Shown: positions 21,155-24,564 of the stretch, piece after piece
Numbering within the stretch: the first letter of the stretch is position 1
How the letters are laid out: every line of letters starts with the position of its first letter
NCBI GenBank assembly: GCA_013360745.1
Contig: JABWBA010000015.1
Span: forward strand, 1 to 51,926
Length of the DNA stretch: 51,926 bases
Source of the DNA: Chthonomonadales bacterium
Lineage (GTDB): Bacteria > Armatimonadota > Chthonomonadetes > Chthonomonadales > CAJBBX01
Reading direction: 5' to 3'
Notes under the pieces: generated by a model
What the model saw: only the letters and a program-made list of their open reading frames with translations
Database searches by the model: none
Told to the model about the DNA's origin: nothing
Program-made: the position numbers and the translations under genes

Positions 21155-21676
21155 GAGCTGAGAGGCAAGAGCTGAGAGCTGAGAGCTGAGAGCTGAGAGG
21201 CAAGAGGCAAGAGGCAAGAGGCAAGAGGCAAGGGGTCCGTCGTCGTAGGGGCGATTCATGAATCGCCCGTACCAGCCCGGTGGCTGAGCCTGTCGAAGCC
21301 CGGTGGCTGAGAGCTGAGAGCTGAGAGGCAAGAGGCAAGAGGCAAGGGGCAAGAGGCAAGAGGCAAGAGGCAAAGGGTCCGTCGTCGTAGGGGCGATTCA
21401 TGAATCGCCCGTACCAGCCCGGTGGCTGAGCCTGTCGAAGCCAAGGGCTGAGAGCTGAGAGCTGAGAGGCAAGAGGCAAGAGGCAAGAGCCCCGTCGTTG
21501 TAGGGGCGATTCATGAATCGCCCGTACCAGCCCGGTGGCTGAGCCTGTCGAAGCCCCGGTGGCTGAGAGCTGAGAGCTGAGAGCTGAGAGCTAAGAGGCA
21601 AGGGGCAAGAGGCCCGTCGTTGTAGGGGCGATTCATGAATCGCCCCTACGTCTCGGTTCGTGATGGCCCGTACGGG
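21155..21676 (+). repeat. Repeat array 1 (four palindromes, heptamer tracts)
   Basis: This gap holds no gene. It alternates tracts of GAGAGCT and GGCAAGA heptamers, a GTCGTCGTAG lead, a palindrome, and a GGTGGCTGAGCCTGTCGAAG block. The palindrome GGGCGATTCATGAATCGCCC occurs at 21249, 21391, 21504 and 21626. The last copy extends outward to CGTAG...CTACG and is followed by a tail (CTCGGTTCGTGATGGCCC) shared with array 2. The open frames across it encode only heptapeptide repeats and are not genes. Confidence 0.9.
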
Positions 21677-21709
21677 CGGTCGGGACCGATGAACCCCGCG
21701 TCCGGTCAC

Positions 21710-21738
21710 TTGACACAGTAACTGGACAGGGATATACT
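21710..21738 (+). promoter_or_regulatory. Strong sigma70-type promoter for a short RNA
   Basis: TTGACA at 21710-21715 and TATACT at 21733-21738 are separated by 17 bp. The -35 is perfect and the -10 has one mismatch to TATAAT. The only thing downstream before the terminator is about 60 bp of structured sequence. Confidence 0.7.
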
Positions 21739-21744
21739 GTGATC

Positions 21745-21805
21745 AATCCGATTGTTCGGAGGTGGATGGCAGTGCCATCGGGGGAGCCCGAAAGGGCTCC
21801 CTTTT
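21745..21805 (+). ncRNA. Candidate structured small RNA (about 61 nt, three hairpins)
   Basis: From the predicted start to the T-run, three hairpins follow one another. TCCGA-TTGT-TCGGA is at 21747-21760. GATGGC-AGT-GCCATC is at 21765-21779. The terminator GGGAGCCC-GAAA-GGGCTCCC is at 21782-21801, followed by TTTT. A possible ATG at 21766 lies only three bases after GGAGG and would read into the antisense of DUF3800, so a peptide is unlikely. The RNA runs convergently into the 3' end of the DUF3800 gene. I do not recognise an Rfam family. It may be an antisense regulator, a partner RNA, or a leftover leader. Confidence 0.5.
21782..21805 (+). terminator. Intrinsic terminator
   Basis: GGGAGCCC and GGGCTCCC pair over eight base pairs around a GAAA tetraloop, followed by TTTT. 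The T-run is on the plus strand only, so it ends the short plus-strand transcript rather than the DUF3800 gene. Confidence 0.8.
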
Positions 21806-21809
21806 CCGT

Positions 21810-22598
21810 CTACGGCAGGATCTTCCGGCCCCATCCGTCGATGCGACCATCAGGACGGCGATCGTACTTTGCCGCCTCCAGGATCTGCGCGATCCTGCCG
21901 CCGAACGTGTCGGGGAGCCTCGAGCGCTGCGAGCGCGCGAGGCTGGCGCGAAAGCTCGGATGCGCGACCAGGTCAGCGAGCTGCAGACCGGCTATATTAT
22001 TGTCCTTTTTCTTAACCTTCAACTCGCTCGATGTCAGACGCTCCTGGAACACCGACCTGTCCACATACTCGGTTCCCTGCTCGTGAACTCGCCCGAAGGA
22101 CCCCTTTAACCGAAGGTCTTCCTTACCGCCGCGCGACTCCGCCATCACATCCCCGACACAGTTGTTGCGTTCAAGCCAACGCACATAACGCTCAAGGAGC
22201 ACACGCAGGCAGTAGTGATAGGGATCGGCCTGCCAGGTCCTGTACCGTGCTCGGTACTCCAGCTTGTCGAGGATAACGGTCTGCACGGTATAGTCCCATG
22301 TGGATAGCCGATCGAGCAGGTCCTCATTGAAGGCGCGTTCCCTCTGCTGTTCCCTCAACGCTTCAAAAGGCGGCCGCTTATTCACGAGCTCCTTTCGGTG
22401 CAGCGTGACGGGCTCGTCAGGATGGCATCCGAAGTGACGCGCTTTGAGCGCCTCGAGCTCCGGGCTGAGCGTCACCCTCACGTAATCGAGGCTCACAATC
22501 ACCCCGGTCAGGCTGAGATAGCGATGGTTCGGGTCCTCGCTCGCGCCAAGATCAGGGTTACCGACTTCGTCAATGTAATACCGGCGTTTTGATTCCAT
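21810..22598 (-). CDS. DUF3800 protein
   Basis: 262 residues from the ATG at 22598. The entry motif YYIDEVGNPD is the DUF3800 signature (usually YIDESG), and AGLQLADLVAH near the C-terminus is the second signature. The family is predicted to have an RNase H-like fold and is common in defence islands, but its activity is not established. The serine of YIDES is valine here. A TTG start at 22613 would overlap the upstream stop as TTGA and may couple the two genes. Its 3' end meets the small RNA candidate. Confidence 0.8.
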   Translation of the reverse strand: MESKRRYYIDEVGNPDLGASEDPNHRYLSLTGVIVSLDYVRVTLSPELEALKARHFGCHPDEPVTLHRKELVNKRPPFEALREQQRERAFNEDLLDRLSTWDYTVQTVILDKLEYRARYRTWQADPYHYCLRVLLERYVRWLERNNCVGDVMAESRGGKEDLRLKGSFGRVHEQGTEYVDRSVFQERLTSSELKVKKKDNNIAGLQLADLVAHPSFRASLARSQRSRLPDTFGGRIAQILEAAKYDRRPDGRIDGWGRKILP

Positions 22599-22609
22599 CG
22601 GTGACGCGG

Positions 22610-22984
22610 TCAATGTCGATCCCTGCCGGGCAATGCGATTGAACCGCGGCCCAGGGTTGCGACCAATCGGTTCTTCAGCTTAACCTGAAGATCCGTGGCG
22701 CCGCTCCAAAGGATGTGGTTGAGATGGTTGGTGTCGAAATGGCACGCGTTCATTTCATCCTGGCGCACGCTGGGCACGACCTCGAGACCAAGGCCCCGGG
22801 CGAACCTCGCTTCGTAGTAGACGCCCGCACGTTGCCCAGTGAACTCCGCCACGACGGCACGGCTCTGGCGGATCTCCGATATCATCTCGTCGTCAAATAG
22901 GTTGTTGTGTTCCTTGATCTGATATGCGCTCGAGATATAACGGGCTTCCAAGCGGCACAGCGGACACTTACCGATTTTATGCAT
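22610..22984 (-). CDS. Truncated nucleoside 2-deoxyribosyltransferase-like protein
   Basis: 124 residues. From about residue 24 it matches the C-terminal half of a deoxyribosyltransferase-like Rossmann domain: DDEMISEIRQSRAVVAEFTG, GVYYEARFARGLGLEVV, then CHFDTNHLNHILW. The front half of the domain is missing. The N-terminus carries a lone CPLC knuckle, half of a zinc ribbon, so an internal deletion has probably joined the ribbon to the domain's second half. Intact relatives are predicted NAD- or nucleotide-cleaving enzymes found with defence genes. It lies directly upstream of DUF3800 with overlapping ends. It is likely inactive. Confidence 0.6.
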   Translation of the reverse strand: MHKIGKCPLCRLEARYISSAYQIKEHNNLFDDEMISEIRQSRAVVAEFTGQRAGVYYEARFARGLGLEVVPSVRQDEMNACHFDTNHLNHILWSGATDLQVKLKNRLVATLGRGSIALPGRDRH

Positions 22985-23189: not shown

Positions 23190-23435
23190 TCAGTGTGCTC
23201 CGTAGCTCCGGGTCGCCTTGTGGCACGGTTGGCACAGTATCTCGCAGTTGGACAGCGTGTCACGCCCGTTCGCGTTGATGTGATGGGCTTCCCATCCCCC
23301 ATCACACTCCGAACCTCTCCGCTCCCACTTGAGTAGCGCAGAGCATCTTCCACTGTGGTCATGCTGAGAGCGTCTGCATTCGCATCTACCCTCGGCTCGA
23401 GCCCACGCATTTCTAACGACAGAGTCTGAAAACAT
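23190..23435 (-). CDS. Small HNH endonuclease
   Basis: 81 residues. The zinc-binding and catalytic pattern is complete: CECRR at about residues 18-22, then AHHIN with the HH of the HNH motif, and NCEILCQPCHKAT, which supplies the final H and the CXXC pair. Such stand-alone HNH proteins cut DNA and are common in phages and mobile islands. The size agrees with the family. The neighbours are a truncated deoxyribosyltransferase gene downstream and a 129-residue unknown upstream on the same strand, so it belongs to the accessory island. Whether it defends or serves a mobile element is open. Confidence 0.75.
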   Translation of the reverse strand: MFSDSVVRNAWARAEGRCECRRSQHDHSGRCSALLKWERRGSECDGGWEAHHINANGRDTLSNCEILCQPCHKATRSYGAH

Positions 23436-24282: not shown

Positions 24283-24555
24283 ATCCGCTAGAACGCCTGA
24301 GGATAAAGTATAGTGCGCGCTGGTATGCAGGCGCGATTCGAGAGTTGAGAGCTAAGAGCTAAGCGGCGATAGGTAACGGTACATGCTCGTACGGGCGATT
24401 CATGAATCGCCCGTACCAGCCCGGTGGCTGAGCCTGTCGAAGCCCGGTGGCTGAGAGCTGAGAGCTGAGAGGCAAGAGGCAAGAGGCAAGAGCCCCGTCG
24501 TCGTAGGGGCGATTCATGAATCGCCCCTACGTCTCGGTTCGCGATCGCCCGGACG
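24283..24555 (+). repeat. Repeat array 2 (two palindromes, with head and tail)
   Basis: A head of about 58 bp (ATCCGCT, GAACGCCTGA, AGTATAGTGCGCGC, TGCAGG) is shared with array 3. Heptamer tracts and two palindromes at 24393 and 24507 follow. The first palindrome extends to GTAC...GTAC and the second to CGTAG...CTACG, so each is perfect over 28-30 bp. The tail CTCGGTTCGCGATCGCCC resembles the end of array 1. Confidence 0.9.
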
Positions 24556-24564
24556 TCCCGGGTA

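Follow-up and report, generated by a model that had tools for sequence, protein, structure and literature searches.

The window, a 51,926-nt stretch of Chthonomonadales DNA, carries a 61-nt structured RNA that lies tail-to-tail with a DUF3800 gene, its 3′ end 4 nt from the stop codon (which starts at 21810). We consider the gene and the convergent RNA to form a two-part unit in which the RNA, as cognate partner of an RNase H-like nuclease, would bind it and control its activity, a reading to which we give a probability of about 0.6. The RNA accompanies every examinable close relative of the gene, across more than 20 phyla, and it is therefore very probable that the two function together. The features of the locus, and two further copies of the RNA, are as follows.

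21710–21715, + strand: −35 element TTGACA, conserved at the same position in relatives
21733–21738, + strand: −10 element TATACT, 6 nt upstream of the RNA start
21745–21805, + strand: DUF3800-linked RNA, 61 nt (models R1 and R2)
21747–21760, + strand: hairpin 1, UCCGA-UUGU-UCGGA (fold; covariation of helix 1)
21761–21764, + strand: linker GGUG, single-stranded and conserved, within the near-invariant GGAGGUGGA (column counts)
21765–21779, + strand: hairpin 2, GAUGGC-AGU-GCCAUC (fold; covariation of helix 2)
21780–21805, + strand: hairpin 3 with U tail, the intrinsic terminator (fold; covariation of helix 3)
21782–21801, + strand: core stem of the terminator, followed by TTTT at 21802–21805
21810–22613, − strand: DUF3800 gene, convergent with the RNA (Pfam PF12686, E 2.1e-13; likely start ATG 22598)
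1501–1570 of locus L106: solo RNA without a DUF3800 gene
1501–1578 of locus L107: RNA beside a C-terminal DUF3800 remnant

Promoter, fold and covariation of the RNA

A near-consensus promoter had been claimed in the first-pass annotation of this DNA, and the claim was borne out: TTGACA-17-TATACT agrees with the consensus at 11 of 12 positions and is the top site of the surrounding 8 kb. Of 78 relatives, 79% had a promoter of at least 9/12 ahead of the RNA; such a site occurred in 12% of shuffled sequences and in 3.4% of stretches taken at random. Among the 62 relatives with a scored promoter, the spacer was 17 nt in 42 and the distance from the end of the −10 element to AAU was 6 nt in 49. A pyrimidine, as is usual before the start base at transcription start sites, preceded AAU in 82 of 83 relatives. 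The Bacteroidota promoter consensus is TAnnTTTG, and this sequence was found exactly 4 nt ahead of AAU in 8 of 10 Bacteroidota-type loci versus 1 of 71 loci elsewhere, indicating that the Bacteroidota loci have a promoter of their own type in the equivalent position. As the promoter, the Bacteroidota type included, keeps a fixed distance, AAUCC is the most likely beginning of the transcript, with its first A as the predicted +1. An inverted repeat, ACAGTA-N14-TACTGT (21714–21740), overlaps both promoter boxes in the window and is operator-like; the relatives have no obvious counterpart.

The fold likewise agreed with the earlier description of three consecutive hairpins over about 61 bases, the last of them a terminator. 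Stability relative to shuffled sequences gave z = −4.1 for 21742–21808 and z = −4.9 for 21745–21806, the latter value reached by 0 of 200 shuffles. Hairpin 3 reads GGGAGCCC-GAAA-GGGCUCCC-UUUU; a coarse terminator scan did not pick it up because that scan asks for five T.

Covarying stems, which had been expected if the RNA belonged to a system, were found. A 45-sequence MAFFT alignment made without fitting to a structure has pairing in 98.9% of cells. Its covariation score was 0.336, against 0.120 ± 0.011 for shuffled alignments, with slid controls reaching no more than 0.079. In the 82 distinct sequences aligned to the RNA model, an alignment that leans towards structure, 11 of 16 pairs vary on both sides and the score was 0.507 versus 0.163. 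Judged from these alignments, covariation is strong in all three stems. Column counts across relatives showed near-invariance of AAU and of most positions in GGAG and in GGUGGA. The loops of the RNA are short and variable. Of the two RNA models, R1 served for finding only and R2 is its replacement. Since the element occupies the same position in other genomes, its stems covary and its promoter is conserved, sequence comparison confirms it as real and as much more than a product of chance.

Linkage of the RNA to one DUF3800 clade

A BLASTN search of 41 related genomes showed the element in two other genomes of the same family. In G007 (Chthonomonadales MAG AS27yjCOA_40, Armatimonadota) it lies directly after a DUF3800 gene and convergent with it, and in G010 the contig stops inside the RNA. 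Of 31 genomes of the order, only the window's own and G007 encode the DUF3800 protein of the window. Between the window and G007, its nearest relative, identity was 97% in the RNA, 71% in the coding sequence and 55–64% in the upstream sequence.

The wider set of loci comprised DUF3800 relatives within the phylum and 80 loci from public genomes, from more than 20 phylum-level groups according to the record labels. RNA-model matches were present in 83 of 88 non-duplicate sources, 82 of them adjoining a DUF3800 gene and one at the solo locus L106. Of the five sources lacking a match, L017 and L018 belong to a different DUF3800 clade, and in the other three (L086, L091, L092) the contig runs out before reaching the 3′ flank. 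Within the clade, the RNA adjoins 82 of 82 examined genes with enough 3′ flank, a count that describes this clade and not DUF3800 overall, the loci having been picked by similarity to it. No intact gene of the clade without the RNA was seen among the loci with 3′ flank. The RNA is also present on three viral contigs that encode a member of this clade, and among cultured bacteria it occurs in Runella zeae DSM 19591, Longilinea arvoryzae KOME-1 and Desulfoferrobacter suflitae DRH4. The 3′ end of the RNA lies mostly −3 to +8 nt from the DUF3800 stop codon.

When 291 genomes of the phylum were searched with the RNA only, 11 matches above 30 bits were obtained, nine of which adjoin DUF3800; the remaining two are the RNA beside the C-terminal remnant (L107) and the solo copy with its own promoter (L106). 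Recurrent linkage and covarying structure, both expected of DUF3800-linked sRNAs, were thus observed, and the recurrent linkage to DUF3800 that the earlier annotation had proposed as a check was present in the clade as well as in this search. Matches of 26 bits or less in genomes without DUF3800 were rejected, the best of them (G104, L111) being chance-like and without the AAUCC/GGAGGUGGA core. A single nonsense codon in DUF3800 beside an intact RNA was observed at L039, L065/L072 and L090. Together with L106 and L107, these loci show broken or missing genes where the RNA persists, but the converse was not encountered, an asymmetry that consists of few cases in draft assemblies, where nonsense codons may be errors.

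On the DUF3800 tree the RNA label changes once, at a clade of 70 rows with 99/99 support, and two DUF3800-IX genes form a separate clade. Phyla are intermixed within the RNA-bearing clade, suggesting that gene and RNA were transferred horizontally as a pair. The occurrence of one RNA class per DUF3800 clade argues for specific protein–RNA recognition.

No widely shared neighbour gene was found within 1.5 kb of the loci. Restriction-modification genes were the only recurrent ones (raw counts among 115 neighbour proteins: five type III methyltransferases and three type I specificity subunits), and most neighbours are non-defence genes. The unit adjoins type III restriction-modification genes at L041, L063, L070, L078, L080 and L085, and at L085 a related gene lies on either side. 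A repeat or mobile-element end was rejected as an identity for the element, the RNA being single-copy in its genome and only restriction-modification genes recurring nearby. In the window, the DUF3800 region lies between two groups, six copies in all, of a direct repeat of about 133 nt (21168–21677 and 24312–24558), which contains a palindrome GTAGGGGCGATTCATGAATCGCCC and runs of GAGCTGAGA/GGCAAGAGGCAA. A short HNH-endonuclease-like ORF lies at 23190–23435 (− strand), its match to Pfam HNH slightly under the cut-off. Immediately upstream of DUF3800 and on the same strand is a small gene (22610–22984, −) with no Pfam match; its product is presumably similar to the C-terminal portion of nucleoside 2-deoxyribosyltransferase-like proteins.

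The DUF3800 protein and its possible control by the RNA

The DUF3800 relatives share the motifs DE, DK, E.RG..ED and QLAD, and D6, E7, D107, E150, D157 and D205 show little or no variation among them. The AlphaFold model of the window protein has a pLDDT of 96.5. Its top PDB match was RNase HII (1eke; probability 1.00, TM 0.42/0.48, E 1.8e-3), a moderate match that indicates an RNase H fold, and the two best matches were two chains of 1eke (probability 1.00/0.99, TM 0.40–0.48, E 1.8e-3/4.6e-3). Comparison with an RNase HII profile showed no detectable sequence homology (hhalign probability 0.6%), and membership of the RNase HII family was rejected on this result. A search of solved structures by DUF3800 sequence found none, and PADLOC has no model for this DUF3800. 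Another DUF3800 protein has been reported to possess an RNase H fold with a catalytic rearrangement, and a link of DUF3800 to putative ncRNAs was remarked on in the same work (PMC10910872). Given the RNase H-like fold of the model, the near-invariant acidic residues and that report, the window DUF3800 is likely to be a nuclease.

In the two-part unit that we propose, the RNA would be transcribed from its own promoter, begin with AAUCC and end at its own terminator. The near-invariant AAUCC-hairpin-GGAGGUGGA core may be the site recognised by the DUF3800 protein, and binding of the RNA would then control the predicted RNase H-like nuclease, conceivably in defence. How control might be exerted is a matter for tentative suggestions. 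The RNA could inhibit the nuclease, acting as an RNA antitoxin that is released under phage attack or stress; we hold this to be plausible though short of an even chance. That it is instead an activating or targeting cofactor seems doubtful, inhibition being somewhat likelier. We think an RNA-guided mechanism unlikely: the RNA offers no variable guide segment of the kind expected of OMEGA or CRISPR RNAs, all its positions being conserved, paired or in short loops, and its predicted start is AAUCC itself.

The arrangement resembles type III toxin–antitoxin systems (ToxIN-like) in combining a structured RNA with a nuclease gene, and a likeness of action may be supposed. In type III systems, however, a tandem-repeat RNA lies upstream of the toxin gene and in the same direction, whereas the window has a single 61-nt RNA, single-copy and without tandem repeats, that lies downstream of and convergent with a gene for a nuclease of RNase H-like fold.

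The convergent position could also mean that the RNA acts as a cis-antisense regulator, transcribed against the 3′ untranslated region of DUF3800 and pairing with the mRNA to alter its stability or termination. The position is fixed and, because the RNA ends so near the stop codon, a read-through DUF3800 mRNA would hold its full complement. However, a constant sequence (AAUCC, GGAGGUGGA) and stems that covary across phyla are more than pairing alone would require, the RNA spans only sequence beyond the stop codon, and the solo copy at L106 exists, with its own promoter, without the gene. With sequence and structure conserved beyond mere overlap, antisense pairing explains less of the data, and we regard it as rather improbable. 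A role for hairpin 3 as a bidirectional terminator between convergent transcripts, the upstream hairpins being incidental, would suit a good terminator located at the end of a gene. This reading is contradicted by the covariation in hairpins 1 and 2, the near-invariant linker and the conserved promoter; moreover, the + strand has no gene in need of termination, the promoter driving the RNA alone, and the hairpin offers the DUF3800 strand no U tract, which leaves it very little probability.

Still less weight can be given to a small protein gene, for which the window offers a ribosome-binding-like GGAGG followed by ATG GCA (GGAGGUGG-AUG). The frame is shifted in the 97%-identical relative, which has one G fewer, there is no conserved ORF, many relatives have no ATG at this place, and the changes keep stems rather than codons. 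As this was the sole ATG frame after GGAGG, the small protein was rejected, in keeping with the earlier judgement that no credible protein is encoded. Of the roles that the first-pass annotation had left side by side for the RNA, a free-standing sRNA is upheld by linkage and covariation, with the addition that it is tied to DUF3800; a structural partner of the protein is the best reading, and antisense regulation accounts for the data less well.

Relation to known DUF3800-linked RNAs

DUF3800-linked sRNAs are a known kind of RNA, credited to Weinberg 2017 (cited in PMC10910872). Rfam holds DUF3800-I, -VII, -VIII and -IX, and the earlier statement that no described RNA of this layout was known beside DUF3800 does not stand for the kind. 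The particular RNA of the window matched none of the 4227 Rfam families. A search at E up to 10 with the window and 19 relatives gave nothing relevant, and one at gathering scores with the window and 40 loci gave no match; the RNA and its relatives fall below the gathering thresholds of all four DUF3800 families. The same library does detect VII, VIII and IX beside other DUF3800 genes of the phylum. As far as Rfam shows, the window RNA is a new class of a known kind.

The RNA might nevertheless be one of the published motifs of Weinberg 2017 (we take the candidates to be DUF3800 II–VI, X and XI) that is absent from Rfam or beyond the reach of an Rfam model. Kind and layout are the same, and the 2017 survey reportedly looked beside such genes. 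The failure of the Rfam searches, in a library where so conserved a family would be expected once published, speaks against this identity, which we consider possible but doubtful.

Like the window RNA, DUF3800-VII, -VIII and -IX (RF02967, RF03075 and RF02968; 90, 64 and 67 model positions) are short structured RNAs that adjoin DUF3800, and their examples in the phylum (L155, L131, L139, L141) are convergent with the 3′ end of the gene. They differ in sequence core, fold and DUF3800 clade, and their models miss the window RNA. DUF3800-I (RF02969) is linked to DUF3800 by name, but its model is longer (115 positions) and does not match the window RNA; no examples of it were found in the genomes searched.

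We entertain, with less than even confidence, the broader idea that DUF3800 genes in general encode nucleases paired with an RNA, every clade having a convergent RNA class of its own, and that they act as toxins or defence nucleases under RNA control; the clade and RNA described here would then be a new, pan-bacterial class. The DUF3800-linked RNAs in Rfam are without known function. Because the window class is compact with clear-cut ends, tracks a single protein clade throughout the examined loci and occurs in cultured bacteria, the role of the RNA for the putative nuclease is open to experiment.

In other DUF3800 clades, a convergent promoter of at least 10/12 was found in 42%, compared with 1.6% for other genes. 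The 3′ flanks of DUF3800 at L130, L131 and L134 hold a second convergent RNA-like element, UCUGAACCUCGG...UCCGGGUAGUAGGAUUCC followed by a terminator, and Rfam gave no match at these places. A third convergent element, CCGAACCYG..., with promoter and terminator, is present in the 3′ flanks at L132, L133 and L156. Past two distant DUF3800 genes, in Pseudomonas phage JBD68 (L198) and the Bradyrhizobium elkanii conjugative plasmid pUSDA94-2 (L199), lie convergent hairpins with a common GGCGCUG... motif and a ...CUUCGCUUUU end.
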